A stretch of 64,000 bases of DNA from contig NZ_JALKCG010000005.1 in the NCBI RefSeq assembly GCF_023016525.1, positions 1 to 64,000 of the forward strand, read 5' to 3'. The first letter of the stretch is position 1. Every line of letters begins with the position of its first letter. Of the stretch, positions 18,531-33,450 are shown one piece after another. A program made the position numbers and the translations under genes. Under the pieces are notes generated by a model, which had not been told where the DNA came from, did no database searches, and saw only the letters and a program-made list of their open reading frames with translations. This stretch comes from Ancylobacter koreensis. GTDB lineage: Bacteria > Pseudomonadota > Alphaproteobacteria > Rhizobiales > Xanthobacteraceae.

Positions 18531-18545
18531 TGTTGACAGTTGGCA
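18531..18545 (+). promoter_or_regulatory. Shared operator/promoter motif, copy A
   Basis: Contains the exact 12-mer TGTTGACAGTTG, here followed by GCA, giving an imperfect TGACA-GT-TGGCA dyad. It lies 41 bases before the dehalogenase start. The same 12-mer occurs upstream of three other transcription units. It includes TTGACA, so it may double as a -35 element. Confidence 0.6.
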
Positions 18546-18586
18546 CAAATCGGAGGAAACATCCGGCATCAGAAGAGGAGGCGCCC

Positions 18587-19516
18587 ATGGCCGTCGTAGA
18601 AGCCGTTCCCGAGCTCGTTTCGTCCACCCGGCTGATGGAGGGCTTCACCTTCCAGCGCATCGAGACGCGCGGCGCCGAGATCAATGTCGCCACCGCCGGC
18701 GAAGGCCCGCCGCTGCTCCTCATCCACGGCAACCCGCTCACGCTGGTGAGCTGGCACAAGGTCGCCCCCTCGCTGGCGCGCGACTTCTCCGTGGTCGCCA
18801 TCGACATGCGCGGCTATGGCGACAGCTCCAAGCCCTATGGCGGCGAGGACCATTCGGGCTACTCGTTCCGCTCCATCGGCGAGGACGCCTTCGACGTGAT
18901 GGACGCGCTCGGCCACAAGACTTTCGCGGTCGCCGGCCATGACCGCGGCGCCCGCGTCGGCTTCCGCATGGCGCTGGACCAGCCCGAGCGCGTCACCCGC
19001 TACGCCGCGCTCGACATCGTGCCGACCCACCATGTGCTCAACAACATCACGCTGGGCTGGGCGCGCGAGAGCTACCACTGGTTCTTCATGGCCCAGAAGG
19101 CGCCCTTCCCCGAGAAGCTGCTCTGCGCCGATCTCGACTATTACATGCGCTACAAGCTCAACAAGAAGGGCGTCGGCCTCGAAATCTTCACCCCCGAGGC
19201 GATCGAGGAATATATCCGCTGCGCCACGCCCGAGCAGATCCACGCCGTCTGCGAGGATTACCGTGCGACCATCACCGTCGATCTCGACATGGACACGGCG
19301 GAATACGGCAAGCGCAAGATCACCTGCCCGACGATGGTCATCTGGGGCACCAACAGCCATTGCGGCCGCCACTTCAAGCCGGTCGAGGCGTGGTCGGAAT
19401 GGGCGGACGACCTCGTCGGCCTGCCGGTGCCGACCGGCCATTACCCGGCCGAGCACCGCCCGGACCTCGTCTATGCGGCCTTCTATCGCTTCTTCCGCGG
19501 TGAGCCCGTGACATGA
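18587..19516 (+). CDS. Fluoroacetate/haloacetate dehalogenase-like alpha/beta hydrolase
   Basis: A 309-residue alpha/beta hydrolase. All residues known in fluoroacetate dehalogenase (RPA1163) have counterparts at an almost constant offset: nucleophile Asp119 and Arg120, Arg123 (HDRGARVG), acid Asp143 (ALDIVP), halide-pocket His164-Trp165 (ESYHWFF), Tyr225 (EDYRA) and base His285 (TGHYPAEH). The family hydrolyses alpha-halo or similar short carboxylates. ATG with AGAGGAGG upstream. Translationally coupled (ATGA) to a rhodanese gene. The physiological substrate is unknown; a non-halogenated ester or acid cannot be excluded. Confidence 0.85.
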   Translation: MAVVEAVPELVSSTRLMEGFTFQRIETRGAEINVATAGEGPPLLLIHGNPLTLVSWHKVAPSLARDFSVVAIDMRGYGDSSKPYGGEDHSGYSFRSIGEDAFDVMDALGHKTFAVAGHDRGARVGFRMALDQPERVTRYAALDIVPTHHVLNNITLGWARESYHWFFMAQKAPFPEKLLCADLDYYMRYKLNKKGVGLEIFTPEAIEEYIRCATPEQIHAVCEDYRATITVDLDMDTAEYGKRKITCPTMVIWGTNSHCGRHFKPVEAWSEWADDLVGLPVPTGHYPAEHRPDLVYAAFYRFFRGEPVT

Positions 19517-21102
19517 CCATTGCCCGCGTGACGGCGGAGGCGGCCCGGCGCCGCCTCTTTGCCGGCGGCGAAATCGCGTTCCTGGATGTGCGGGAGGCCG
19601 CCGCCTTTGGCGACGGCCATCCGCTTTTTGCGATTCCGTGCGCCTATGGCCGGCTCGAACTGTCGGCAGTTGCCCTCGTCCCGCGCCGCGATTGCCCGCT
19701 CCTGCTGGTCGACGACGATGACGGCCTGTCCGAGCGCGCGGCCGAGCGCCTCGCCGCCTGCGGCTACACCGACATCACGGTGGTGATCGGCGGCGTGCCG
19801 GCCTGGAAGGCGACCGGCTACGGCATCTTCGCCGGCGTCAACGTGCCGAGCAAGACACTGGGCGAGTTGCTCGAACACGCGCACCATCCCGGCACCATCG
19901 ACGCCCCGACCTTCGACCAGTGGCGGCGCGAGGGGCGCGAGCACCTGTTCTTCGACGCCCGCCCGCCGGGCGAATACGCCAAGATGCGTATCGAAGGCGC
20001 GCGCTGCGTGCCCAATGGCGAGCTGGCCCATCGCCTCGCCGCCGTCGCGCCGGACGAAACGACGCCCATCGTCATCACCTGCGCCGGCCGCACGCGCGGC
20101 ATTGTCGGCGCGCTGGGGCTGCGGGCGCTGGGCGTGCGCAACCCGGTCTATGCGCTGGAGAACGGCACGCAGGGCTGGGCGCTGGCCGGCTTGCCCCTTG
20201 ATCGCGGGGCCAAGCCCGATCCGTTCCCCGAGCTCGACGCGGCGGCGAAGGCCGCCAGCCGGGATCGCGCCGAGCGCCTCATCGCCCGTACCGGCCTCGC
20301 CCGCACCGACATTGCCGGCGCCGGCGCCCTGCTGGCGCAGGCGGAGCGCACGCCGTTCCTGTTCGACCTGCGCAGCGCACCCGAGCGCGCGGCGCGGCCG
20401 GCACCGGGCGCGGTTCCCGCGCTGGCCGGCCAGCTCATCCAGGCCACCGACCAGTATGTCGGCGTGCGCCATGCCCGGCTCGTGCTGATGGACGATACCG
20501 GCCTGCGCGCGGCGCTCGCCGGCCTGTTCCTGCGCGCGCTGGGCTTCGAGGTGCATGTGCTGGCGCTCGACGAGGAGCCCGACGTGGCGCCCCCGGCCCC
20601 GCCCGCCACCGGGCTGAAGCTGCCGGCTGCGCCGCCGTCGGTCGATCCGCGCGCCGGCTGGGCCCGCGCCTGCCACGGCCTGCCGCTGTTCGACCTGCGC
20701 TCCTCCACCGAATGGGAGGTGCGCCGGCTCGCCGGTGCGCGCTGGATGCTGCGCGTCGACCTGCCCGGCCCGCTGCCGGCCGGCACCAAGCGCGTGCTGC
20801 TGCAGGGCGAGGAGGGCGTCGTCGCCGGTGCCGCCGCCGATCTCGCCACGCGCGGCATCGCCGCCGAATGGCTGACGCCGGATCTTGAGGCCTGCGCGGC
20901 GGCGGGCTGGCCGGTGGAGACCACGCGCCGGCCGCTCAGCCGCGACCGCGCGCTCGACCGGGTGTGGTTCGTCCACGATCGGCACGACGGCAATGCCGAA
21001 GCCTCGCGCCGCTATCTCGCCTGGGAGACCGGGCTGATCGCCCAGCTCGACGCCGAGGAGCGCGCCACCTTCGGCACGGTACCCATCGACGCCCTCGCCT
21101 GA
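19513..21102 (+). CDS. Four-domain rhodanese-like sulfurtransferase
   Basis: A 529-residue cytoplasmic-looking protein made of four rhodanese-like repeats (starting near residues 5, 128, 260 and 375; motifs IAFLDVREAAAF, HLFFDARPPGEYA, PFLFDLRSAPE, LPLFDLRSSTEWE). Only the second has the active-site loop CAGRTRG, with Cys190; the others lack the cysteine. It could transfer sulfane sulfur or act as a scaffold. Its stop is followed by a clean terminator, so it ends a two-gene operon with the dehalogenase-like gene. That pairing is unusual and its purpose is unknown. Confidence 0.85.
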   Translation: MTIARVTAEAARRRLFAGGEIAFLDVREAAAFGDGHPLFAIPCAYGRLELSAVALVPRRDCPLLLVDDDDGLSERAAERLAACGYTDITVVIGGVPAWKATGYGIFAGVNVPSKTLGELLEHAHHPGTIDAPTFDQWRREGREHLFFDARPPGEYAKMRIEGARCVPNGELAHRLAAVAPDETTPIVITCAGRTRGIVGALGLRALGVRNPVYALENGTQGWALAGLPLDRGAKPDPFPELDAAAKAASRDRAERLIARTGLARTDIAGAGALLAQAERTPFLFDLRSAPERAARPAPGAVPALAGQLIQATDQYVGVRHARLVLMDDTGLRAALAGLFLRALGFEVHVLALDEEPDVAPPAPPATGLKLPAAPPSVDPRAGWARACHGLPLFDLRSSTEWEVRRLAGARWMLRVDLPGPLPAGTKRVLLQGEEGVVAGAAADLATRGIAAEWLTPDLEACAAAGWPVETTRRPLSRDRALDRVWFVHDRHDGNAEASRRYLAWETGLIAQLDAEERATFGTVPIDALA

Positions 21103-21124
21103 CGGCCGATCCGGACCTCTCGAC

Positions 21125-21157
21125 GCCCCTTCCGCCACCGGCGGGAGGGGCTTTTTT
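21125..21157 (+). terminator. Rho-independent terminator
   Basis: A 12-base stem (GCCCCTTCCGCC with GGCGGGAGGGGC, one G-T pair) with a 3-base loop is followed by six T. It ends the hydrolase-rhodanese operon. Confidence 0.9.
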
Positions 21158-21227
21158 GTGCCTGGTGCCGGCCGGCGAGCCGCGCGCGCCGACCGGATAC
21201 CGGGTGGGCTCGACCATCCCCGCAAAG

Positions 21228-21255
21228 AAAAAAGGGGCGGGTGTGAACCCGCCCC
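21228..21255 (-). terminator. Rho-independent terminator of the tct operon
   Basis: On the minus strand a 9-base stem (GGGGCGGGT and ACCCGCCCC) with loop GTGA is followed by a T-run, visible as A-rich sequence at 21228-21233 on the plus strand. It lies 44 bases past the tctA stop. Confidence 0.88.
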
Positions 21256-21298
21256 CCGTTGGGGAGTGATCGTCGGCGGCAGGCGCCGCCGGGGCGCC

Positions 21299-22873
21299 TC
21301 AGCCCTTGCTGGGCGTGGTGTGGGCGGCATTGGCGGCCGCCTCGTCGCGCAGGCGCTCCATCGCCAGCGCCTCGGCCGCCTCGGCCCGGTTCTGCTTGCG
21401 CTTGCCCCAGGCGGTCATCGCCAGCGAGGCGAACATCACCGCGAAGATGGCCATCGCCGCCGGCCGCTCCAGTATGTACATCGGGTTGCCGCCGGAGAGC
21501 TGGTAGGAGCGCAGGAACTCCGTCTCCAGCATGCGCCCGAGCAGGATGCCGACCACCACCGCCGAGACCGGATATTCGTAGCGGTTCAGCGCGTAGCCGA
21601 GCAGCGCGAAGACGAACAGCGTGATCGGGCCGGCCGCCTCGCCCGTCACCGCATAGGTGCCGAGCGTGGCGATGACGAGGATCGCCGGCAGCACGTAGCG
21701 TGTACGCACCTTCATGATGTTGGAGGCGACGTAGATGAAGCCGATGCCCACCGCCAGCAGCACGATGGCCTGGACGATGTTGTTGAGGATGATGGCGTAC
21801 ACCATCGGCTTCTGCGTCTCGATGAAGCTCGGGCCCGGCACGATGTTGTGCATCATGAAGGCGGCGATCAGGATCGCCGTCGCGCCGCCGCCGGGGATGC
21901 CGAGCGCCAGCATGGTGGCCATGGAGCCGCCCTCGCCGCTCGCCACCGCCGATTCGGCGGCGATGACGCCCTTGGGGTTGCCCTTGCCGAAGGTCGCGCT
22001 GTCCTTGGCGGTGCGCTTGGTCTCGGCATAGGCGATCAGGTTGCCGATGGACGAGCCGACGCCCGGCACGGCACCGATGATGATGCCGATAATCGAGCCG
22101 CGCAGCAGCACGCCGGGATACTTCATCGTGCCCCAGCAACCCTTGAGGATCTTGCGCAGGCTGACCTCGCGCGAGCCCTCGGCCTCGATGATGTAGTCAC
22201 GGGTGGCGAGGCTGAGCAACTGGCTCGCCGCCAGCAGGCCGATCATGGCGGGGATCGGCGCGATGCCGTCGAGCAGCACCGGCAGGCCCAGCGTGCCGCG
22301 GGTGAAGCCGGCGGTGTTCATGCCGACCGTGCCGAGCAGGATGCCGAAGGCCGCCGCGAGCAGTCCACGGCTGATGTAGGTGGAGCCGAGCGAGCCCAGC
22401 AGCATCATGCCCCAGATCGCCACCGCGAACATTTCCACTGGACCGATGCGAAGCACGATGTCGGCCAGCGGCTCGATGACGAGCAGCAGCAGCAGATAGC
22501 CGGCAATGCCGCACAGGGTGGAGGCGAACAGCGCGTAGCCCAGCGCCTCGTTATGCTCGCCCTTCTGCGACATGGCGTAGCCGTCGAAGGTCGTCGCGAA
22601 GGAGGATGGCGATCCCGGTATGTTCATCAGGATCGCCGGCACCGACCCGCCGAACCCCGCACCGGTATAGACCGAGGTGAGGAAGACGATGGCCGAGAAG
22701 AAATCCATGTAGAGCGACATCGGCAGCACGATGGCCATGGCCATGGTGATGGAGATGCCGGGAATGGCGCTGAAGACGAGGCCGACGATCAGGCCGGGGA
22801 CGATCCATCCCCAGGACCCGACCGAGGTGAACATGATGCCCAGCGCATCGTTGAAGGCGGTAATGTCGATCAT
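21299..22873 (-). CDS. tctA: Tripartite tricarboxylate transporter large membrane subunit
   Basis: A 524-residue integral membrane protein of the TctA family with about a dozen hydrophobic segments. Conserved parts are LVFSAIPGISITMAMAIVLP near residue 35, GFGGSVPAILMNIPGSPSS near 75, and the inverted second half around GAVPGVGSSIGNLIAY and ALGIPGGGATAILIAAFMMH. It moves di- or tricarboxylates with the ion gradient, fed by the binding protein TctC. The order tctC-tctB-tctA and the 10-base gap after tctB indicate one operon, ending at a terminator. Confidence 0.94.
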   Translation of the reverse strand: MIDITAFNDALGIMFTSVGSWGWIVPGLIVGLVFSAIPGISITMAMAIVLPMSLYMDFFSAIVFLTSVYTGAGFGGSVPAILMNIPGSPSSFATTFDGYAMSQKGEHNEALGYALFASTLCGIAGYLLLLLVIEPLADIVLRIGPVEMFAVAIWGMMLLGSLGSTYISRGLLAAAFGILLGTVGMNTAGFTRGTLGLPVLLDGIAPIPAMIGLLAASQLLSLATRDYIIEAEGSREVSLRKILKGCWGTMKYPGVLLRGSIIGIIIGAVPGVGSSIGNLIAYAETKRTAKDSATFGKGNPKGVIAAESAVASGEGGSMATMLALGIPGGGATAILIAAFMMHNIVPGPSFIETQKPMVYAIILNNIVQAIVLLAVGIGFIYVASNIMKVRTRYVLPAILVIATLGTYAVTGEAAGPITLFVFALLGYALNRYEYPVSAVVVGILLGRMLETEFLRSYQLSGGNPMYILERPAAMAIFAVMFASLAMTAWGKRKQNRAEAAEALAMERLRDEAAANAAHTTPSKG

Positions 22874-22883
22874 CGGGCGCGCC

Positions 22884-23396
22884 TCACAGCAGGGTGGTGG
22901 GCATGGGATAGGAGATCAGGGCGCGGAACCCGTAGATCGTGACCAGGGTGACGGCGAGCGAGAACACCAGCAGATGCACCGGCCGCCGCTCGCCGCAGAT
23001 GGCCATCGCCGCCGCCGCAAACAGGAAAATAGCGATATCGAAGCCGATGACGTCGAGCAGGAAGACCATCAGGCCAAGCGACACGCCCAGCGCCACCATG
23101 CGGATGATGTCCGAGTGCCCCGTGGAGACCTCGATGGCGAAGGGGTCCTTCTCGCCGCCCGCCCTGGGCGCCGCGACGGCGTCGACCTTGCGGAAGCACT
23201 GGGGAAGGATGAACAGGTACATGGCCAGCGCGAAGATCGCCACCGGCTGCACCAGCAGCAGATTGTTCACGCTGAGCGACACGCTCCGCGCGTCAAAGAG
23301 GTACCAGAAGACCGCGCCGGCGATCAGCGTGATGAGTGCCAGATGGCCGTAGTCGATGACGTAGGTTTGCCGACCGATACGCATCATCAGCTCCAT
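22884..23396 (-). CDS. tctB: Tripartite tricarboxylate transporter small membrane subunit
   Basis: About 170 residues with four hydrophobic segments (LALITLIAGAVFWYLF, LLVQPVAIFALAMYLFIL, MVALGVSLGLMVFLLDVIGF, IAIFLFAAAAMAI), as in TctB small subunits. The start is uncertain: two closely following ATGs (codons 4 and 5) are preceded by GGAG inside the first codons, so translation may begin there. It lies between the binding protein and the large subunit genes. Confidence 0.9.
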   Translation of the reverse strand: MELMMRIGRQTYVIDYGHLALITLIAGAVFWYLFDARSVSLSVNNLLLVQPVAIFALAMYLFILPQCFRKVDAVAAPRAGGEKDPFAIEVSTGHSDIIRMVALGVSLGLMVFLLDVIGFDIAIFLFAAAAMAICGERRPVHLLVFSLAVTLVTIYGFRALISYPMPTTLL

Positions 23397-23418
23397 GAGA
23401 CGGGGGAGTGAGAATGAA

Positions 23419-23446
23419 GGCGGGCCGGCGACACGCGCGGCCCGCC
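23419..23446 (-). terminator. Hairpin between tctC and tctB
   Basis: Perfect 9-base arms GGCGGGCCG and CGGCCCGCC with a 10-base loop lie just after the tctC stop. There is no T-run. As in the other transporter operons here, it could protect or separate the binding-protein message. Confidence 0.6.
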
Positions 23447-23460
23447 CCCGTCGGTGCGGC

Positions 23461-24456
23461 CTACTTCAGCAGGTCGACGTACTTGGCCATCTTGGCGGCG
23501 TTGTCGAGATACGCCTTGTCGGACGCCTCAGGGCCGTACCAGGTGGTCGCGAGCTCCTGGAGCTTAAGGGCCTCGATGGCCGCCGGGTTCTTGCTCGCGC
23601 GCTCGATGGCGCCGACGAGGAACTTGTAGATTTCCGGCTGCTCGTTCTTGAGCTTGGTGGTCACGGCCCAGCCGCGCTGCGAGCCTTCCACGAAGTCCGG
23701 CTTCAGGCCGCTCGCGCCGATCAGGGGCGCGTCGGGATACCATTCCACCTTCTCGGCCGCGAACATGGCGAGCGGGCGGATCTTGGTCTTCAGCGGCAGG
23801 AAGCCCTCGCCGCCGACGAAGCCGACATCGACCTGGGCGCCGGCGGTCGCGTTGCGGGCCGGACCGCCGCCGTCATAGGTCACGATGCGCAGCTTGGTGG
23901 GATCGATATCGGCCGCCTGGAAGGCCAGCACCATGTTGGCGTAGTCGGCCGAGGCCGGCTGCACGCCGATGCTGAGGCTGGACGGGTCCTTCTTCAGCTT
24001 CTCGATCACTTCGGCGAAGGTCTTGACCGGGCCGTTGGAGGAGGTCGCCGCCAGCGTGTAGTCACGCGACGGCAGGTTGATCATCGAGAAGTCCTCGACC
24101 TTGTACGGCGCGTTCTGCAGCAGCACGGTCAGCGGGATATAGGGCGCTGCCGAGGTGCACAGGATGGAATAGCCGTCGGCCGGCTGGTTCAGCGCGTAGG
24201 AATTGCCGAGCTGCGTGCCCGCGCCGGGCTTGTTCACGATCACCAGCGGCTGCCCCACCTCCTTTTCGAGGAAGGTCAAGAAGGCGCGCGACAGGCGGTC
24301 ATTGTAGCCGCCGGTGGCGAACGGCACGATGACGTTGATCGGGCGCGTCGGATAGTTCGCGGCGCGCAGGATCGACGGCATCGCGACAAGCCCGCTGGCC
24401 GCCGCGAGGCCGCCCGCGGTGATTTTGAAGGCGTCTCTGCGTGTGAAATCTGTCAT
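23461..24456 (-). CDS. tctC: Tripartite tricarboxylate transporter binding protein (Bug/TctC family)
   Basis: A 331-residue periplasmic receptor. The N-terminus MTDFTRRDAFKITAGG plus a hydrophobic stretch looks like a twin-arginine export signal, cleaved near LRAA. The mature part shows the Bug signature YPTRPINVIVPFATGG, then KPGAGTQLG and VDVGFVGGEG. Such proteins bind a carboxylate between two lobes. The ATG has GGGAGGAA upstream. The ligand may be tartrate- or citrate-like, inferred from the neighbouring catabolic genes. The promoter carries the shared TGTTGACAGTTG motif. Confidence 0.93.
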   Translation of the reverse strand: MTDFTRRDAFKITAGGLAAASGLVAMPSILRAANYPTRPINVIVPFATGGYNDRLSRAFLTFLEKEVGQPLVIVNKPGAGTQLGNSYALNQPADGYSILCTSAAPYIPLTVLLQNAPYKVEDFSMINLPSRDYTLAATSSNGPVKTFAEVIEKLKKDPSSLSIGVQPASADYANMVLAFQAADIDPTKLRIVTYDGGGPARNATAGAQVDVGFVGGEGFLPLKTKIRPLAMFAAEKVEWYPDAPLIGASGLKPDFVEGSQRGWAVTTKLKNEQPEIYKFLVGAIERASKNPAAIEALKLQELATTWYGPEASDKAYLDNAAKMAKYVDLLK

Positions 24457-24550
24457 GTTTTCCTCCCGCCGTTCCATCTCGATCGGTCGGCCGGACGCAT
24501 TGCGTTCTCGGCCACGTGGACTAGGCAGGACGAGACTGTATCCCCGCCCG

Positions 24551-24563
24551 TCAACTGTCAACA
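24551..24563 (-). promoter_or_regulatory. Shared operator/promoter motif, copy B
   Basis: On the minus strand this reads TGTTGACAGTTGA, the exact shared 12-mer, about 95 bases upstream of tctC. The second dyad half is degenerate (TGACG). Confidence 0.6.
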
Positions 24564-24700
24564 CATTTGCTGAGAGCCGGAAGCGAATTCCCCGGCCGTA
24601 CCGGGTCAAGCCGGCGGGATCATTGCCTTTTCCGCCAATATTTTCCCCGCTCCCAAGGCCGCCGCAGGGGTCGCGAAAGCCGTCCGCATCGCGCACGATC

Positions 24701-24715
24701 TGTTGACAGTTGTCA
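24701..24715 (+). promoter_or_regulatory. Shared operator/promoter motif, copy C (best dyad)
   Basis: TGTTGACAGTTGTCA contains a perfect TGACA-GT-TGTCA dyad. It lies upstream of the AbrB-type operon, about 140 bases from copy B, which serves the divergent tctC operon. Confidence 0.65.
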
Positions 24716-24787
24716 TTGATGCTGTCTCAATCCGGCCGGGTTCCGCCGGCGGTGCGCCGCTGTGAGACGGGCCGTCGGGAGGTTGTC

Positions 24788-24901
24788 ATGTTCGTCCACC
24801 GCGTCGCCAGCCGGGCCCTGCCCGCCTCATCTCCAGCACGCGCGCGGGTCCGCGCGGGCGCAGGGATAGGGCGCGCGCCCGCGGAGGCGGCGGCGGTCTG
24901 A
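24788..24901 (+). CDS. Possible 37-residue leader peptide
   Basis: An ATG with the strong ribosome site GGGAGG 5 bases upstream opens a 37-residue frame (MFVHRVASRALPASSPAR then Ala/Arg-rich) whose TGA overlaps the ATG of the next gene as TGATG. No homology is recognised. It may exist only to couple translation of the membrane-protein gene, or be spurious; high GC favours chance frames. Confidence 0.35.
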   Translation: MFVHRVASRALPASSPARARVRAGAGIGRAPAEAAAV

Positions 24902-26007
24902 TGGCGGAGATTCCGAAGGATTCCGGCGAATCGAGCCTGCTCGCCTCGCCCCGACTGCGCTGGTGGCTGCGCTTCCTCGTCACCTACGCCATCGGCGCGG
25001 CCGCCGGCTACGCCGCCTCGCTCGCGCATATCCCCCTGCCCTGGATGCTGGGGCCGCTCTTCGTCTGCGGCCTGCTCAACGTGTCCGGCGTGCCGCTGCA
25101 GGCCGGCCCACATCTGCGCGAGATCGGGCAGGTGGTGGTCGGCCTCGCCATCGGCATGCGCTTCACGCCGCATCTGCTGCTCGTCTCGCTCGAACTGCTG
25201 CCGGCCATGCTGGTGGCGACGCTCTACATCATCCTCGCCACCTTCATCGGCGCGCTCATCATGCGCCCGCTGGCCCGCATCGACCCGACCACCGCCTTCT
25301 TCGCCACAGCCGCCGGCGGCATGGCCGACATGGCGGTGGTGGCGGCGGCGCGCGGGGGCGACACCAACGCGGTCTCCATCGTCCACGCCCTGCGCGTGAC
25401 GACGGTGGTGTCCATCGTGCCCTTCATGGTGTTCGCCTTCGGCGAGCCGGGCAATGTGAACACGGCCGACCCCGCGACCTCGCACGATCTTCTGCTGCTC
25501 GCGCTCGGGCTGGTCGTCGCCTATCTCGGGGCGCAGGCGCTGCGCCCGACCGTCATCCCCAATCCCTGGCTGCTCGGCTCGCTGCTGCCGAGCGCGGCGC
25601 TCGGCGCCTCGGGCCTGCTCAACGTCGCGGTGCCCGGCATCCTCATCGTCGCCGCGCAGATCATGATCGGCGTCTGGCTGAGCATGCGGTTCCGGCGCGA
25701 GCTGTTCGTGCGCCTGCCGCGTGTCGCCGCCTCGGGCCTGCTGGTGGGCGTGCTGCTCATCTTCGCCGCGCTCGCCGGGGCCGAGGTGCTGGCGCTGGCC
25801 ACCGGCCTGCCGCTGACCACGAGCTTCCTCGCCCTCGCGCCGGCCGCCATCACCGAGATGGTGCTGACCGCCAAGGCCATGCATGCCGACGCCGAGCTGG
25901 TGACGGCCTTCCACATCGTCCGCATCGCGGTGATCTCGTCGACCATCCTCATCGTCTTCCGGGTCTACCGCTTCGTCTTGAGGAGTCATTATGGATCTGG
26001 GGTTTGA
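24901..26007 (+). CDS. AbrB-family membrane protein
   Basis: A 368-residue integral membrane protein with about ten hydrophobic segments and internal duplication typical of the AbrB family (older name: ammonia monooxygenase regulator). The two halves share HIPLPWMLGPLFVCGLLNVSG / NPWLLGSLLPSAALGASGLL and ATAAGGMADMAVVAAARG / ALAPAAITEMVLTAKAMH. The biochemical role of the family is not established; uptake or export of an organic acid is inferred from context. It starts within TGATG and overlaps the SDR gene by 17 bases, heading an operon of at least four genes. Confidence 0.82.
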   Translation: MAEIPKDSGESSLLASPRLRWWLRFLVTYAIGAAAGYAASLAHIPLPWMLGPLFVCGLLNVSGVPLQAGPHLREIGQVVVGLAIGMRFTPHLLLVSLELLPAMLVATLYIILATFIGALIMRPLARIDPTTAFFATAAGGMADMAVVAAARGGDTNAVSIVHALRVTTVVSIVPFMVFAFGEPGNVNTADPATSHDLLLLALGLVVAYLGAQALRPTVIPNPWLLGSLLPSAALGASGLLNVAVPGILIVAAQIMIGVWLSMRFRRELFVRLPRVAASGLLVGVLLIFAALAGAEVLALATGLPLTTSFLALAPAAITEMVLTAKAMHADAELVTAFHIVRIAVISSTILIVFRVYRFVLRSHYGSGV

Positions 26008-26785
26008 CGGTCGCCGGGCCGTCATCGTCGGCGGCAGCTACGGCATCGGCGAGGCGACGGCGGAGATCCTGCTGCGCGAGGGCGCGCAGGTGATCATCGC
26101 CTCGCGCAGCCGCGACAATCTGGAGGCCGCTGCCCGGCGTCTGGAAGCCGCGACCGGCCGCGCGCCGGACATCTTCGTAGCCGATGTGGTGGACGACCCC
26201 AACGCCGCCGAGGCGCTGGCGGCACAGGCCGCGACCCGCTGGGGCGCGCTCGACGTGCTGGTCAGCGCGGTGGGCGGCAGCGTGCGCGCCGACTTCGCCA
26301 CGCTCGCGGACGAGGACTGGCTCGCCAGCTACCGCTTCAACGTGCTCTCGACCGTGCGCACCGTGCGCGCGGGCACCGCGCTCCTGGCGAAGGGCGAAGC
26401 GCCTGCCGTCGTCACGCTGGGCGCCGCCGCCGCCAAGATGCCCTATGCGCATCAGGTCATGACCAATGTCCACAAGGCCGGCCTGCTCGGCCTCGTGAAG
26501 ACGCTGGCGCTGGAACTCGGCGAGCTCGGCATTCGCATCAACAGTGTCGGCCCCGGCCGCACCAAGACCGCGCTCTGGACCAACCGCGCCACCCGCATGG
26601 CGGCGGAGCGCGGCGTACCGGTGGAGGAGATCTACGCGGAATTCTCGCACGAGATTCCACTCAAGCGTTTCGCCGAGCCGCAGGAGATCGCCGTCATGGT
26701 CGCCTGGCTCGCCAGCCCCCTCGCCAGCTACATCACCGGCCAGGCCATCAATGTCGACGGCGGCATCGCGCGCGGCCTCGTTTAA
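25991..26785 (+). CDS. Short-chain dehydrogenase/reductase with atypical active site
   Basis: A 264-residue SDR fold. It has the NAD(P) loop GGSYGIG (14-20), Asn117 of FNVLS, Lys162 and the C-terminal ITGQAINVDGG. By alignment to YxxxK, however, the catalytic Tyr position is Thr158 (TNVHK) and the Ser position is Ala145 (LGAAAA). The standard Ser-Tyr-Lys relay is therefore missing although the cofactor fold is intact. ATG with AGGAG upstream, overlapping the previous gene. It may catalyse another chemistry or use substrate-assisted proton transfer; a non-catalytic role is possible. Confidence 0.85.
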   Translation: MDLGFDGRRAVIVGGSYGIGEATAEILLREGAQVIIASRSRDNLEAAARRLEAATGRAPDIFVADVVDDPNAAEALAAQAATRWGALDVLVSAVGGSVRADFATLADEDWLASYRFNVLSTVRTVRAGTALLAKGEAPAVVTLGAAAAKMPYAHQVMTNVHKAGLLGLVKTLALELGELGIRINSVGPGRTKTALWTNRATRMAAERGVPVEEIYAEFSHEIPLKRFAEPQEIAVMVAWLASPLASYITGQAINVDGGIARGLV

Positions 26786-26796
26786 AGGAGAACAGA

Positions 26797-28164
26797 ATGT
26801 CCCAAAAAGACGTCACCAAGCAGCTCGCCGCCTGGATCGTGAAGACCGGGCTCGACGACATCCCCGCTTCCGTCCGCGACGAGGGCGTGCGCACCTTCTT
26901 CAACTGGCTGGGCTGCGCCGTCGGCGGCGCGCGCCATGAGACGGTGGATTGCGCGCTGGCCGGCATCTCGCCCTTCGCCGGCAGGCCGCAGGCCACCGTG
27001 ATCGGGCGCGGCGAGCGCCTCGACGTGCCGAACGCGGCGCTGATCAACGGCATCTCCTCGCATGTGCTCGACTATGACGACACGCATCTGAAGACCATCA
27101 TCCACCCCGCCGGCCCGGTCGCCTCGGCGCTGCTGGCGACGGCGGAATACATGCCGGTCTCCGGCGCCGACTTCCTCAACGCGCTGATCGTCGGCGTCGA
27201 GGTCGAATGCCGTATCGGCAACAGCGTCTATCCCGAGCATTACGACCGCGGCTGGCACATCACCGGCACGACCGGCGTGTTCGGCGCCGCCGCCGCCGTC
27301 GGCCGCCTGCTCAAGCTCGACGAGACGCAGATGACCTGGGCGCTCGGCATCGCCGCGACGCAGGCCTCGGGCCTGCGCGAGATGTTCGGCACCATGTGCA
27401 AGAGCCTGCATCCCGGCGCCGCCGCCCGCAACGGCGCGCTCGCCGCCTTCCTCGCCAAGGCCGGCTTCGACAGCTCGCTGCAGGCCATCGAGGCGCCGCG
27501 CGGCTTCGCCAACGTGCTCTCCACCAAGCAGGACTACAACGAGATCCTTGGCGGTCTGGGCGAGACCTGGGAAGCCGGGCTCAATTCCTACAAGCCCTTC
27601 GCTTGCGGCATCGTCATCCACCCCACCATCGACGGCTGCCAGCAGCTTCGCGAGGAGCTGGGCGCCGAGGTCGGGAAGATCGCCGCCGTGCGCCTGCGCA
27701 CCCACCCCCTCGTGCTGGAGCTGACCGGCAAACGCACGCCGAAGACCGGGCTGGAGACCAAGTTCAGCGTCTTCCACGCCGCCGCCTGCGCCCTGCTGCG
27801 CGGCGACGGTTCGCCCACCGCCTTCACCGACGAGGCCGCCAACGCGCCCGAGATCATCGCCCTGCGCGACAAGGTGGATGCGACCTCGGACACCTCGATC
27901 CACGAGGCCTCCGTGGTGATCGAGGTCGAATTCGAGGACGGCCGCACGATCGAGAAGACCATCGAGCGCGCCATCGGCAGCCACGACAAGCCGCTGAGCA
28001 ACGCGCATCTGGAGCGCAAGTTCGCCCACCAGTCCGGCCTCGTGGTCGGCGACGAGGTGACGAAGCAGTTGATGGCGCTGGCCTGGCGCCTGCCGGAGCT
28101 GGCGGACGCCGGCGAGGTCGCCCGCGCCTCGGTGCCGGCGAACCTGCGCAACGCGGCGGAGTGA
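26797..28164 (+). CDS. MmgE/PrpD-family protein, copy 1
   Basis: A 455-residue member of the MmgE/PrpD family, which includes 2-methylcitrate dehydratase and epimerases or hydro-lyases acting on polycarboxylates. Family marks are FFNWLGCAVGGARHETVD, INGISSHVLDYDDTH (active-site DYDDTH), GVEVECRIGNSV and KPFACGIVIHPTIDGC. It begins 11 bases after the SDR with AAGGAGA upstream. A second family member occurs about 6.6 kb downstream beside tartrate dehydrogenase. The actual substrate is not evident. Confidence 0.9.
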   Translation: MSQKDVTKQLAAWIVKTGLDDIPASVRDEGVRTFFNWLGCAVGGARHETVDCALAGISPFAGRPQATVIGRGERLDVPNAALINGISSHVLDYDDTHLKTIIHPAGPVASALLATAEYMPVSGADFLNALIVGVEVECRIGNSVYPEHYDRGWHITGTTGVFGAAAAVGRLLKLDETQMTWALGIAATQASGLREMFGTMCKSLHPGAAARNGALAAFLAKAGFDSSLQAIEAPRGFANVLSTKQDYNEILGGLGETWEAGLNSYKPFACGIVIHPTIDGCQQLREELGAEVGKIAAVRLRTHPLVLELTGKRTPKTGLETKFSVFHAAACALLRGDGSPTAFTDEAANAPEIIALRDKVDATSDTSIHEASVVIEVEFEDGRTIEKTIERAIGSHDKPLSNAHLERKFAHQSGLVVGDEVTKQLMALAWRLPELADAGEVARASVPANLRNAAE

Positions 28165-28174
28165 GGGGAGCACC

Positions 28175-29269
28175 ATGACCCACGCCCCCCTGCGCATCGG
28201 CGTCCTCAACGGCGACGATATCGGCCACGAGATCGTGCCCGCCTCCCACGCCATCGCCGATGCGGCGGCGCGGGCGAGCGGCCTCGCCATCGACTGGCGG
28301 CCCATGCCGCTCGGCCGCAAGGCGCTGGACGAGCTCGGCCACACCATGCCGCCCGGCACGCTGGAGACGCTCGGCACGCTCGACGGCTTCATCCTCGGGC
28401 CGATCGGCCACATGGCCTATCCCAAGGTGCCGGAGGCGATCAATCCGCACCCGATCCTGCGCAAGAGCTTCGACCTGTTCGCCAATGTGCGTCCCACCCG
28501 CTCCTATCCAGGGCTGGGCTGCCTCTATGACGACATCGACCTTGTCATCGTGCGCGAGAACAATGAGGGCTTCCAGCCGGACCGCAACGTGGTTGCCGGC
28601 TCGGGCGAGTTCCGCCCGACGCACGACACCACCATCTCGGTGCGCGTCATCACCCGCGAGGGCAGCCGCAAGGTCGCCCGCGCGGCGCTGGAGATCGCCC
28701 GCGCGCGCAAGAAGCGGCTGACCGTCGTGCACAAGAACACGGTGTTCAAGCTCGGCTGCGGCATGTTCGTGGAGGAGTGCTACGAGGCGGGGAAGGAATT
28801 CCCCGACGTCGCCATCGAGGAGGTGATCGTCGACACCTTCGCGATGAAGCTGGTGCGCGAGCCCCAGCGCTTCGACGTCGTCGTCACCACCAACATGTTC
28901 GGCGACATTCTCACCGACGAGGCGGCGGGTCTGGTCGGCGGGCTCGGCATGGCGCCGGGCCTGTGCATCGGACGCGGCGAGATCGCCATGGCGCAGGCGA
29001 CGCACGGCTCGGCGCCCGACATCGCCGGCAAGGGCATCGCCAATCCCTATGCGATGATCGAATCCACCCGCATGCTCATCGAGTGGCTCGGCCGCCGCCG
29101 GAGCATCCCCGCCGCCGCGCGCGCCTCGGAACTGATGAAGGCCGGCATCGAGGCGGCGCTGGCCGATCCGGCCACCCGCACGCCGGACATTCTCGGCACC
29201 GGCACGCAGGGCGACATGGTGGAAGGCATTCTGGCGGCGATGCGCGAGCGCGCGCCGGTGGCGGCCTGA
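28175..29269 (+). CDS. Isocitrate/isopropylmalate dehydrogenase-family enzyme
   Basis: A 364-residue beta-decarboxylating dehydrogenase-type enzyme. It has RPTRSYPG near residue 107, VRENNEGF (126-133), catalytic-type Lys in HKNTVFK, metal Asp in NMFGDILTDE, and HGSAPDIAGKGIANP. At the catalytic tyrosine position (Tyr137 in the tartrate dehydrogenase encoded nearby) it has Gln134. Ordinary family substrates are 2-hydroxyacids with a 3-carboxylate. It follows the MmgE/PrpD gene by 10 bases with GGGGAG upstream. The substrate is unknown. Confidence 0.88.
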   Translation: MTHAPLRIGVLNGDDIGHEIVPASHAIADAAARASGLAIDWRPMPLGRKALDELGHTMPPGTLETLGTLDGFILGPIGHMAYPKVPEAINPHPILRKSFDLFANVRPTRSYPGLGCLYDDIDLVIVRENNEGFQPDRNVVAGSGEFRPTHDTTISVRVITREGSRKVARAALEIARARKKRLTVVHKNTVFKLGCGMFVEECYEAGKEFPDVAIEEVIVDTFAMKLVREPQRFDVVVTTNMFGDILTDEAAGLVGGLGMAPGLCIGRGEIAMAQATHGSAPDIAGKGIANPYAMIESTRMLIEWLGRRRSIPAAARASELMKAGIEAALADPATRTPDILGTGTQGDMVEGILAAMRERAPVAA

Positions 29270-29401
29270 ACGCCCGCGAGGGCGGAACTGCGAGGGGCGG
29301 CGGGCCTGGCGCCGGCGCCCCTCTGGTATTTCGAAGACAAAATGCCGCATCCATCCTTCTACCGGGCGCGACGCGCAGAAATTAAGAGCCTTTCGATTCC
29401 T

Positions 29402-29415
29402 GATTGTCTACAATC
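29402..29415. promoter_or_regulatory. Palindrome before GntR gene, likely autoregulatory operator
   Basis: GATTGT-CT-ACAATC has perfect 6-base arms around a 2-base spacer, ending 5 bases before the regulator's ATG. The TTGTNNACAA form is typical of FCD-type GntR operators. Confidence 0.65.
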
Positions 29416-29420
29416 GACGG

Positions 29421-30125
29421 ATGAGCATGGGCAGCGATTCAAACCATTTGGCCGACCTCTCCGTGGTGAAGAGCGTCTCGCTCACCAGCGCGCTCGAAAA
29501 GGAGCTGGAGCGGCTCATCCTCACGGGCGAGCTTGAGCCGGGCGAGCGGATCAACGAAATTCACCTCTCGAACCGCTTCGGCACCAGTCGCGGCCCGATC
29601 CGCGAGGCGACGCGCAGCCTGGAGGCCAAGGGCCTCGTCGAGGTGGTGCGCAATCGCGGCGTCTTCGTGCGCCGCCTGTCGGTGGAAGATGCCGTCGAAA
29701 TCTACGACGTGCGCGCCGCGCTGTTCGGCCAGGCCGGGCGCCTGCTGGCCGAGCGAATGACCGACGGGTTGCTCGGACAGCTCACCCGCATGGTCGACGA
29801 GATGGACGCCGTTGCCGAGCGCGGCAGCTTCGACGACTACTACCCGCTCAATCTCAGCTTCCACAATCTCATTGTCGGCTCGTGTGGCAACCGCACGTTG
29901 CAGGCGGAATATCACCGCTTCGTCAACAAGCTTCACCTGTTCCGCGCCCGCGCGCTGGTGCAGGGCGGCGGGCTCGCCGTGTCGAACCGCGAGCATCGCG
30001 CCATGCTGGAGGCGCTGGCCTCCGGCGACGGCGACCGGGCGCAGATGACGCATTGGCGCCACGTCGCCCTCGCCAAGCGCCGCCTCATCGCCGCCGTCGA
30101 CGGCGCGGCGTCCCGTATCGACTGA
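29421..30125 (+). CDS. GntR-family regulator with FCD domain, copy 1
   Basis: A 234-residue regulator. It has a GntR winged helix (residues about 20-85: LEPGERINEIHLSNRFGTSRGPIREATRS) and an all-helical FCD effector domain with the metal/ligand histidines of SFHNLIVG, NREHRAML and HWRHVALAK. Such proteins sense organic acids. It is last in the AbrB operon direction but has its own palindrome just before the ATG, suggesting autoregulation. A second ATG two codons later is an alternative start. It may control the nearby units together with the second GntR gene. Confidence 0.92.
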   Translation: MSMGSDSNHLADLSVVKSVSLTSALEKELERLILTGELEPGERINEIHLSNRFGTSRGPIREATRSLEAKGLVEVVRNRGVFVRRLSVEDAVEIYDVRAALFGQAGRLLAERMTDGLLGQLTRMVDEMDAVAERGSFDDYYPLNLSFHNLIVGSCGNRTLQAEYHRFVNKLHLFRARALVQGGGLAVSNREHRAMLEALASGDGDRAQMTHWRHVALAKRRLIAAVDGAASRID

Positions 30126-30158
30126 CTTTTCGTCACCGGCTGGAGCCGAGGCGAAGAC

Positions 30159-30188
30159 GTGGATCCCCGGGTCAAGCCCGGGGATGAC
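30159..30188. repeat. REP-like palindrome
   Basis: ATCCCCGGG-TCAAG-CCCGGGGAT inside GTGGATCC...GGGGATGACG. The same element recurs near 53398, so it is a dispersed intergenic repeat between convergent genes. Confidence 0.8.
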
Positions 30189-30233
30189 GTCGTTTCGTGG
30201 GTCAGCTTGAGCCCGAGCCAGACGGGTTGCCCC

Positions 30234-31265
30234 TCACGCCGCCGCGCGCGCCTCGTTCTTGCGCGAGGCCACCCGCGCGGCGAGGCGCACGGCGGACTGG
30301 AAGGCGCCGATATCGGCGATGCCCTTGCCCACGATGTCGAATGCGGTGCCGTGCGCGGGGGTCGTGAACACGATCTCCAGCCCCGCGGTGATGGTCACGC
30401 CCTTGTTGAAGCCCTTTAGCTTCGTCGCGATCTGCCCCTGGTCGTGATACATGGCCAGCACGCTGTCGAAGGCGCCGCTGAAGGCCTTGATATAGACCGT
30501 GTCCGAGGGGAACGGGCCGGTGCAGTCGATGCCTTCCTTCGCCATCGCCTCGACGGCCGGGCGGATGAAGTCGATCTCTTCCGTGCCGAACATCCCGCCC
30601 TCGCCGGCATGCGGGTTGAGCGCGGCAACCGCGATACGCGGCTTGTCGATGCCGGCCTTGCGCATGGTGTCGTCGGCGAGGCGCAGCGCCCGGCAGATGG
30701 AATCGAAGGTGACCTGATCGAGCGCGGTGCGCAGCGAGACATGCGAGGTCACGCGCGTCATCCACTGACCTTCCAGCACGTTCATCTCGCTGAACGGGCC
30801 CTTGTGGTCGAGCAGATGGGCGAACATCTTGTGCTCGTCCGGGAAGCGCCAGCCGCCGTTGAACATGGCCTGCTTGTTGAGCGGGGCAAAGCACACGCCC
30901 TCGACCTCGCCGGCCTTGGCGAAGTCGATGGCGCGGGCCAGCGTGTCGCCGGTCAGCCGGCCGGAATCAGGGTTGGCGACGCCGAGCTCGAAGGCGGCCG
31001 GGTCGATATTGCCGAGGTCGACCACCGGGATTTCCGGCGCGCTCCAGTCCACCGCCTTGGGCGAGGGATAAAGCTTGGTGTTCAGCGTCACGCCGGCATG
31101 GCGCGCGCCCATCTCCAGCACGCGGATATCGCCCACCACCACGAGGCGCGCCACGTCACGCAGGCTGCCTTCGGCCAGCAGGCGGGCGGTCTGCTCGGGG
31201 CCGATGCCGGTGCAGTCGCCGGGCACCAGGGCGAGGACCGGGAGGGAGGAGGAAGTGCGCGTCAT
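30234..31265 (-). CDS. pdxA2: PdxA-family 4-phospho-hydroxyacid dehydrogenase
   Basis: A 343-residue PdxA-family NAD-dependent oxidative decarboxylase. Metal histidines by family position are His175 (SHVSL), His219 (NPHAGEGGMFG) and His274 (YHDQGQ), and the KQAMFNGGW and TTPAHGTAFDI segments are present. PdxA makes pyridoxal precursors, while PdxA2 relatives act on 4-phospho-threonate or erythronate in catabolic operons. The position downstream of a GntR gene in an acid-catabolic region favours the catabolic kind. No DUF1537 kinase, its usual partner, is in the window. It is the second gene of a GntR-pdxA operon. Confidence 0.88.
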   Translation of the reverse strand: MTRTSSSLPVLALVPGDCTGIGPEQTARLLAEGSLRDVARLVVVGDIRVLEMGARHAGVTLNTKLYPSPKAVDWSAPEIPVVDLGNIDPAAFELGVANPDSGRLTGDTLARAIDFAKAGEVEGVCFAPLNKQAMFNGGWRFPDEHKMFAHLLDHKGPFSEMNVLEGQWMTRVTSHVSLRTALDQVTFDSICRALRLADDTMRKAGIDKPRIAVAALNPHAGEGGMFGTEEIDFIRPAVEAMAKEGIDCTGPFPSDTVYIKAFSGAFDSVLAMYHDQGQIATKLKGFNKGVTITAGLEIVFTTPAHGTAFDIVGKGIADIGAFQSAVRLAARVASRKNEARAAA

Positions 31266-31281
31266 GGAATCACCTGTCTGA

Positions 31282-32037
31282 CTATCTGTCGTTGGATGGC
31301 CGGTCTTTCGACCGGGTGTTGCGCGGATCGAGCGGACCGGGCCGCCCCTCCGTCGCGCTGTCGTCTTCGAGCGTGCGCAGGAAGCGCGCCTTGCCGGCGA
31401 GGATGTGCCGCTCCAGCAGCCGCGCCGCGCCGGTGCCGTCGCTCTGCCGCAGGGCGTCGAGAATGGCCTTGTGTTCGTCGTTCGAGGTGCGCATCGAGCC
31501 CGGCAGCACGAGGCCGCGCCGGCGGAAAAGGTGCAGCTCCGCCTCCAGCAGCGGGTAGAGCTCGATCAGCTTGGCGTTGTCGGAGGCGACCACCACGTGC
31601 CGATGGAACTCGTTGTTGAGCTGGTAGAAGGTGGCGATGTCCGGCGCCTCGATGGCCGCGTCCATGCGGGCGATCAGCTCTTCGAGGTCGCGCAGCTGCA
31701 CCGTGGTGACGATGGCGGCGGCCAACCGCCCGGCGGTGCCGAACAGGCCGGCGCGGATGTCGTAGAGGTCGAGCGCCTCCTTGGTGCTGACCTCGCGCAC
31801 GAAGAAGCCGCGGTTGAGCTCGCTGCGCAGCAGGCCGATCTGTTCGAGCGCCCGGCAGGCCTCGCGCACCGGGCCCCGGCTGATGCCGAGCCGCAGCGCC
31901 AGCGTGCTCTCATTGATGCGGGTGCCGCTGGTGAGTTCGCCCGTGCCGATCATGCGCTCGATCTCGCGCTGGATCACCGGCACGAAGGATGCGGTGCGCG
32001 GGGTGCGGACGGAATTGGCTGGCGAGCGGCGGAGCAT
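31282..32037 (-). CDS. GntR-family regulator with FCD domain, copy 2
   Basis: A 251-residue FCD-type GntR protein. The winged helix is at residues about 15-80 (REIERMIGTGELTSGTRINE, LGISRGPVREACRALEQ), and the FCD domain carries NEFHRHVVV, SNDEHKAIL and LLERHILAG histidines. It shares layout with the other GntR gene 1.2 kb away. It is transcribed with pdxA (16-base gap) and away from tartrate dehydrogenase. A weaker copy of the shared motif lies 29 bases upstream, so it is the better candidate for the regulator of the TGTTGACAGTTG sites. Confidence 0.92.
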   Translation of the reverse strand: MLRRSPANSVRTPRTASFVPVIQREIERMIGTGELTSGTRINESTLALRLGISRGPVREACRALEQIGLLRSELNRGFFVREVSTKEALDLYDIRAGLFGTAGRLAAAIVTTVQLRDLEELIARMDAAIEAPDIATFYQLNNEFHRHVVVASDNAKLIELYPLLEAELHLFRRRGLVLPGSMRTSNDEHKAILDALRQSDGTGAARLLERHILAGKARFLRTLEDDSATEGRPGPLDPRNTRSKDRPSNDR

Positions 32038-32065
32038 GCGGCAATCTGGCCCGTTGAATCGAAAA

Positions 32066-32079
32066 TTGTCAACACTGAT
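32066..32079 (-). promoter_or_regulatory. Weak copy of shared motif (E)
   Basis: The minus strand contains TGTTGACAATTTTC, matching the first eight bases of the shared motif, just upstream of the GntR/pdxA operon. It may be an operator or simply a -35-like element. Confidence 0.4.
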
Positions 32080-32255
32080 GACGATTATGACGACAACGAT
32101 GCCCTATTTGCCACGCGACATTCATTCCGTTGGGGCAACGCGTCTGCTGCGTTGCAACGAGATAAAATCCTCACAAATTCAGTAGGCATAACGACAGGGT
32201 GAGACTAAGTCGGAGCCGCCCGGGGAGGTTTTCAAAGCGCTGTTTTTCTGAAAAG

Positions 32256-32269
32256 TGTTGACAGTTGTC
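32256..32269 (+). promoter_or_regulatory. Shared operator/promoter motif, copy D
   Basis: TGTTGACAGTTGTC, 71 bases before the tartrate dehydrogenase start, with nearly the full TGACA-GT-TGTCA dyad. The rest of the 302-base divergent intergenic region is AT-rich but holds no gene. Confidence 0.62.
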
Positions 32270-33419: not shown

Positions 33420-33450
33420 GCGCGTCGAACGACAGAACAGGAAACGCACC

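Follow-up and report, generated by a model that had tools for sequence, protein, structure and literature searches.

In the genome of Ancylobacter koreensis, several neighbouring operons for carboxylate uptake and breakdown carry the same 12-mer, TGTTGACAGTTG, in their promoters, which raises the question of whether they form a single regulon and which protein would read the shared element. The operons lie in the first 64,000 nucleotides of contig NZ_JALKCG010000005.1, and this whole 64-kb stretch is referred to here as the window. Judged from sequence comparison, the 12-mer is probably the operator for a dimer of GntR1 and/or GntR2, two regulators encoded in the same cluster, acting at six window promoters where repression would be relieved by a carboxylate.

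Candidate operator sites

The original prediction reported four exact copies of the 12-mer in the window, each upstream of a named operon. All four are present in those promoter positions, with the tctCBA copy beginning at 24552 on the minus strand rather than at 24551. Their origin by chance was held to be very unlikely, and none of 100 dinucleotide shuffles of the window contains an exact copy. The weaker copy proposed before the GntR-pdxA operon also exists, with two mismatches, at 32063–32074 on the minus strand instead of 32066. A sixth site belongs to this class but was absent from that prediction; it precedes the start codon of GntR1. The six candidate operators are:

18531–18542, plus strand: dehalogenase-rhodanese operon, exact 12-mer, containing the −35-like TTGACA
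24552–24563, minus strand: tctCBA operon, exact 12-mer
24701–24712, plus strand: abrB-sdr-prpD1-idh operon, exact 12-mer
29403–29415, plus strand: gntR1 itself, ATTGTCTACAATC, the 12-bp frame ending 4 nucleotides before the ATG
32063–32074, minus strand: gntR2-pdxA operon, TGTTGACAATTT, two mismatches to the 12-mer
32256–32267, plus strand: tartrate dehydrogenase-prpD2 operon, exact 12-mer

Another two-mismatch copy, at 19661, is inside the rhodanese gene and was excluded from the promoter sites. The possibility that the 12-mer is common at unrelated promoters was addressed by scanning the 4.06-Mb genome, which holds five exact copies, one of them outside the cluster; allowing one mismatch adds none. 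The 13-base operator pattern WNTGTYKACANTY matches 11 places in the genome, comprising the six window promoters, the fifth exact copy, a site at C11:253631 and three occurrences of TGTCGACA that are within or overlapping open reading frames.

The fifth exact copy (C16:59553; G000, L005 1501–1512) is located approximately 70 nucleotides 5′ of the ATG of an alpha/beta hydrolase gene. The N terminus of this hydrolase resembles a secretion signal by eye, its alpha/beta-hydrolase matches in Pfam are all below threshold and a comparison with NCBIfam gave no matches. The 12-mer is followed there by TCATT, as in the 24701 copy. From its upstream site the hydrolase gene is a possible unlinked member of the regulon in A. 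koreensis. Matches to the hydrolase are found in four of 30 genomes of the genus including its own, and the other three are 36–48% identical and come from genomes without the cluster. The hydrolase is unmatched in the other cluster-bearing genomes, which leaves no orthologous promoters there for comparison of the site.

Conservation within the genus

The 30 genomes compared belong to the Ancylobacter group and include A. polymorphus, A. moscoviensis, A. rudongensis, A. aquaticus, A. vacuolatus, A. dichloromethanicus and A. mangrovi. The 12-mer is present in 17, exactly those with an orthologous cluster, and the remaining 13 have neither. The same 17 genomes each encode a GntR1 orthologue that is 87% identical or more; for the 13 others, the best GntR1 match among those listed is at most 52% identical, with G016 and G017 assessed by E-value only (1.5e-23 and 3.8e-21). 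This co-occurrence has a probability of 1/C(30,17), or 8e-9, if the genomes are treated as independent. Across the genus, 47 of 48 copies of the 12-mer fall inside the cluster or its contig fragments. A relaxed 14-mer places 73 of 76 copies in the cluster, one of these 73 inside a rhodanese gene, and the three outside it are the C16 copy, a site before an FCD regulator in G022 and a copy within an open frame of G013, which does not have the cluster.

In the fetched copies of the cluster the sites are found at the same promoters wherever those promoters occur (G020 supplies more than one fragment or copy among the loci). The 12-mer is exact at 17/17 tctC loci. At the dehalogenase promoter 13/18 loci are exact and five have one mismatch; the tartrate dehydrogenase promoter is exact at 12/18 loci, with one mismatch at five and two at one. 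At the abrB promoter 5/17 loci are exact, 11 have one mismatch and one has two. The gntR2 promoters carry TGTTGACA(A/G)T in 18/18 loci, after removal of a nineteenth row (G020c), a fragment in which the matched gene was another GntR. The gntR1 promoters have TGT[CT][TA]ACAAT in 18/18 loci, 4–6 nucleotides 5′ of the mapped start, with TGTTTACA, TGTCTACA or TGTCAACA in place of TTGACA.

The cluster itself varies in gene content. The gap between idh and gntR1 (29269–29421 in the window) holds an additional tartrate dehydrogenase paralogue (46–48%) in 14 of the 17 genomes, the exceptions being the window genome, G010 and G002. Four cluster copies (L075, L079, L080 and L081) are without PrpD1, and G006, G009 and a G020 fragment (L082) encode a third FCD GntR and a PrpD gene divergent from the dehalogenase gene.

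Two further regulators have related sites. The site in G022 (L120 9836; G022:C1:1882835) reads TGTTGACAGTTTTC and precedes the gene of a further FCD regulator, 41% to GntR2, with TctA/TctC-like genes on either side. In A. koreensis, a GntR1 paralogue (48%; C11:253631, L122 7634) adjoins TctC, TctA, PrpD and short-chain dehydrogenase (SDR) genes, and its promoter site ATTAAATTGTTGACACT is kept in eight of nine genomes examined; in G022 the gene differs and is perhaps of another type. Since this paralogue has its own conserved ATTAAATTGTTGACACT, a sister regulon that uses the TGTTGACA core with another flank seems likely.

Shape of the candidate operator

A pooled profile of the sites, in which each promoter was given equal weight, shows that positions 1–3 and 6–8 (TGT..ACA) and position 10 (T) are near-invariant, position 14 is C in 93%, and 97% have A or T at position −1. 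Beyond the stretch from −1 to 14, the information mostly falls short of 0.5 bit. The best palindrome centre is 4.5, around which the pairs 1/8, 2/7 and 3/6 score 0.99 and the pair −1/10 scores 0.66. The palindrome is observed by computation, as are the sites, their conservation and their link with the cluster.

The original prediction had instead extended the best copies to a TGACA-GT-TGTCA dyad. Only the copies at 24701 and C16 have that dyad in full, and its right arm is not conserved across genomes. The symmetry score of the six promoters is 4.61 at the TGT|TG|ACA centre versus 3.54 at the dyad centre, with corresponding values of 4.56 and 3.69 for the four structural promoters and 4.90 and 3.72 for sites outside the genus. 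The dyad was ruled out as the operator because position 13 is unconserved and its symmetry score is lower.

The operator therefore appears to be a palindrome of the FadR/FCD-type GntR class, AnTGT-TG-ACAnT, with a conserved outer C. The 12-mer would be the Ancylobacter form of a general AnTGT-NN-ACAnT operator, in which NN is usually TG, the right flank is GTTG and the outer C is at position 14. Suvorova et al. (2015; PMC4494728) give GT-N2/3-AC as the consensus of the FadR subfamily, with 2-nucleotide spacing in several groups, and describe weaker additional half-sites 7–12 nucleotides from the operator centre. The sites here have the core palindrome and the AT-rich flanks of that subfamily, and by analogy, extra half-sites of this kind could explain the C at position 14.

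Related clusters outside the genus

A 14-mer scan of 297 genomes of the order found matches in 118 genomes, mostly one or two each; the selection that followed would overlook clusters with fewer than three sites. From the genomes with at least three matches, only G122, a genome of another family than Ancylobacter, was chosen as a cluster by coordinates among the matches listed. A plasmid search for idh gave 40 records matching at E ≤1e-60, and all six of those at 64–77% identity were examined. Sites of the form TGT[TC][GTA]ACA(A/G)T number four in Neorhizobium, five in Phyllobacterium, two in Rhizobium BG4, one in R. jaguaris, two in the first Pacificitalea stretch and four in G122. For five of these six clusters the site count was matched in at most 1/100 shuffles. 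Most of the sites precede homologues of window genes or a GntR gene, and the rhizobial sites approach GTAAATTGTTGACAATTTAC, a longer palindrome.

Pacificitalea belongs to another order, and a second stretch of its plasmid contains an exact 12-mer (L134 6342–6353) approximately 150 nucleotides 5′ of a tctC-tctB-tctA-tartrate dehydrogenase-pdxA operon; 5/200 shuffles contain a match at up to one mismatch. A homologous cluster in Variovorax, which is flanked by LysR and has no GntR1/GntR2 match nearby, has no sites. The motif also precedes an ABC (ATP-binding cassette) transporter operon in Neorhizobium (L128 6477; annotated afuCAB) and Phyllobacterium (L130 6506), and this transporter may be a second means of uptake in the regulon. 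A single carboxylate uptake-and-degradation regulon under an FCD-type GntR, as first suggested for the window, agrees with these comparisons: the motif tracks the cluster, occupies the same promoters and recurs in other families and orders.

Candidate regulators

GntR1 and GntR2 both exceed the Pfam gathering scores for the GntR and FCD domains, which places them in the FadR/FCD type. They are 41% identical and have in common an SRGP(I/V)REA helix and an NRG wing, which we take, by eye and from the FadR contacts listed in PMC4494728, to be the DNA-contacting parts. Residues N144, H148, H192 and H214 of GntR1, presumably the metal ligands of the FCD pocket, are identical in GntR2. Both genes carry a site in their own promoters, and both are present in 17/17 cluster genomes, so co-occurrence within the genus cannot separate them. 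The recognition helix does not discriminate either, because paralogues with somewhat different sites have the same helix.

There is a little less than an even chance that GntR1 (29421–30125) alone reads all of the sites and that GntR2, itself a target, has a different operator or role. The adjoining Pacificitalea stretches (28.7–76.0 kb of the plasmid) have three sites, one of them the exact 12-mer, and their single GntR1/GntR2 relative is a GntR1 orthologue (61%; 40% to GntR2) directly after idh. The plasmid as a whole has three GntR2-like places, in a search confined to the plasmid. In the clusters of Neorhizobium, Rhizobium BG4 and G122 there are two close relatives apiece, which also counts against GntR1 as the only reader; Phyllobacterium and R. 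jaguaris each have a single close relative, plus one or two remote relatives (22–28%). GntR2 itself argues against the exclusive role of GntR1 through its shared helix and wing, its retention in every cluster genome and the site kept in its own promoter. Because the only relative in the Pacificitalea stretches is a GntR1 orthologue, the comparison leans slightly towards GntR1 alone or both paralogues as the reader.

Proposed mechanism

Binding, the sign of regulation, the −35 role and release by an inducer are steps that we infer as follows. A dimer of GntR1 and/or GntR2 would bind the six window promoters and probably also that of the unlinked hydrolase gene. Five of the six window sites contain TTGACA, a perfect consensus −35 hexamer and apparently the −35 hexamer of these promoters, so that the bound regulator would keep RNA polymerase out. 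The gntR1 site lies shortly ahead of the start codon and would allow autorepression. A carboxylate inducer, either the substrate or a pathway intermediate, would bind the FCD domain and release the regulator. The transporter, PrpD-type (de)hydratase/isomerase, beta-decarboxylating dehydrogenase, SDR, PdxA-like and dehalogenase-like genes would then be expressed jointly.

Position 31 would be the last base of a −10 hexamer spaced by 17 bp; it is T in 100% of distinct sequences for tctC, 94% for abrB, 94% for tartrate dehydrogenase and 78% for gntR2. Repression by covering the −35 is considered likeliest because the site holds TTGACA and the −10 T is conserved in these four promoters. A class II activator usually lies upstream of a poor −35, and the placing of the site here over the putative −35 hexamer is typical of a repressor, which makes it quite unlikely that the regulator activates some of these promoters rather than repressing them. 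Activation does have a precedent in the same class, as excerpts of PMC2230225 describe GntR1/GntR2 of C. glutamicum repressing several genes and activating ptsG.

The TTGACA and the conserved −10 T would also suit an extended promoter with a strong −35 element and no operator function. This was rejected as the sole explanation and is very improbable: the bases flanking TTGACA are conserved on both sides, the gntR1 sites do without the hexamer, the rhizobial sites are longer palindromes, and the 12-mer is rare, with one further copy in the rest of the 4-Mb genome and none in the 13 cluster-less genomes of the genus. That the copies are functionless remnants of duplicated promoter DNA, by shared ancestry or local duplication, as four of five exact copies within 14 kb might suggest, is barely credible given that promoter similarity fades beyond the site, all of the sites persist across 17 genomes and sites with other flanks occur in other families.

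Several observations weigh against an operator read by GntR1 and/or GntR2 in the form proposed. Two bases, C14 and G9, violate the symmetry of the palindrome. At the dehalogenase promoter a −10 at 17 bp is not conserved; apart from the T at position 31, the −10 hexamers are weak, and scanning for the sigma-70 consensus yields no promoter. The co-occurrence in the genus holds for the whole cluster and not for one regulator, and the genomes are related. Outside the genus, three of 31 genomes hold one exact 12-mer each, some sites precede genes without a window homologue, and the lone R. jaguaris site was reached in 15/100 shuffles and is not significant. These external sites were also selected by the core pattern, so that their independent evidence is in the flanks only, the Pacificitalea 12-mer excepted.

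Genes under the sites

The genes of the candidate regulon are:

18587–19516, plus strand: alpha/beta hydrolase of the fluoroacetate dehalogenase family
19513–21102, plus strand: multidomain rhodanese-like protein
21299–22873, minus strand: tctA, large membrane subunit of a tripartite tricarboxylate transporter
22884–23396, minus strand: tctB
23461–24456, minus strand: tctC, substrate-binding protein
24901–26007, plus strand: AbrB-type membrane protein
25991–26785, plus strand: SDR
26797–28164, plus strand: prpD1, MmgE/PrpD family
28175–29269, plus strand: idh, isocitrate/isopropylmalate-type beta-decarboxylating dehydrogenase
29421–30125, plus strand: GntR1, FCD-type GntR regulator
30234–31265, minus strand: PdxA-like dehydrogenase
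31282–32037, minus strand: GntR2, FCD-type GntR regulator
32340–33419, plus strand: tartrate dehydrogenase, above the TIGR02089 cut-off
33373–34878, plus strand: prpD2, MmgE/PrpD family, start codon uncertain

The 32340–33419 product scores 553.7 bits against TIGR02089 (cut-off 470.4), which identifies it as a tartrate dehydrogenase, and the idh product at 28175 reaches only 208.1 bits. Neither PrpD qualifies as a 2-methylcitrate dehydratase by the PrpD equivalogs, with PrpD1 at 47.1, 31 and 25.8 bits against cut-offs of 950, 575 and 458, and PrpD2 at 44.1 and 24.6 bits against 950 and 575. IDS-epimerase is the nearest solved structure to both, and cis-aconitate decarboxylases match as well. 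The dehalogenase-like protein gives near-full-length alignments with 9c9f (261 bits), 3r3u (252 bits) and Alr0039 (3qyj; 281 bits). Its GHDRGAR, YHW, EDYRA and GH stretches align with those of 3r3u, consistent with a predicted fluoroacetate dehalogenase; we take them to supply the catalytic Asp, the Arg pair, the halide-site His-Trp-Tyr and the His. The substrate of the pathway is probably a hydroxylated di- or tricarboxylate.

Terminator-like hairpins are present at 21125 and 21257, between the two convergent operons; the region has four in total against a shuffle mean of 5.4, so there is no enrichment. Outside the regulon, positions 37921–39342 on the minus strand encode a short-chain fatty acyl-CoA regulator (ScfRs, IrrE-like, helix-turn-helix).

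Relation to known systems

By sequence, the best solved relative of GntR1 is 7xp0 (89 bits). We take 7xp0 and 7xp1 to be PmiR of P. aeruginosa, which, by the title of its paper, reportedly senses 2-methylisocitrate. PmiR controls propionate/methylcitrate genes. The present setting is unlike that of PmiR in that the window genes scanned showed no prpB or prpC and both PrpD proteins fall below the 2-methylcitrate dehydratase cut-offs. The dehalogenase-like protein, in turn, matches fluoroacetate dehalogenases (9c9f, 3r3u and others) over nearly its full length, with the activity only predicted, and differs from them in its setting within a polycarboxylate cluster.

The FadR/FCD regulons with 2-nucleotide spacing, for which the excerpted text of PMC4494728 names PrpR and MdcY among the groups, resemble the present one in the AT-rich palindrome, the GT-NN-AC core and an extra half-site 7–12 nucleotides from the centre. 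A difference is that the TGTTGACA core here seems to double as a −35 and the GTTG right flank breaks the symmetry. The GntR1/GntR2 pair of C. glutamicum, as far as the excerpts of PMC2230225 describe it, offers a parallel in which two FCD paralogues share one operator set at catabolic genes and are released by a substrate; here the equivalence of the two paralogues is a candidate property. That pair differs in its TNGTNNNACNA sites, 3-nucleotide spacing and gluconate inducer. No publication on the present regulon was found in literature searches of titles and abstract openings; the switch is of a known type, and the particular circuit is newly mapped here.

A broader and rather unlikely possibility is that two FCD paralogues, or three in some genomes, jointly read one operator that is also the −35 box and sense different acids of one pathway, with positions 9–12 (GTTG, ATT, CT) setting the share of each. 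The pathway would be an undescribed route for a substituted, possibly halogenated, hydroxy-polycarboxylate. Enzymes of the PrpD, beta-decarboxylating dehydrogenase, PdxA-like and dehalogenase-like types would make it up, and it would be distributed across Alphaproteobacteria, both chromosomally and on megaplasmids.

With six mapped operators and two candidate regulators, the cluster of carboxylate enzymes becomes one testable regulon, related forms of which range from Ancylobacter to rhizobia and Pacificitalea. Naming the pathway would give activities to members of the PrpD, PdxA and dehalogenase families, and two paralogous regulators with one operator class would offer a clean system for the divergence of specificity among FCD regulators.

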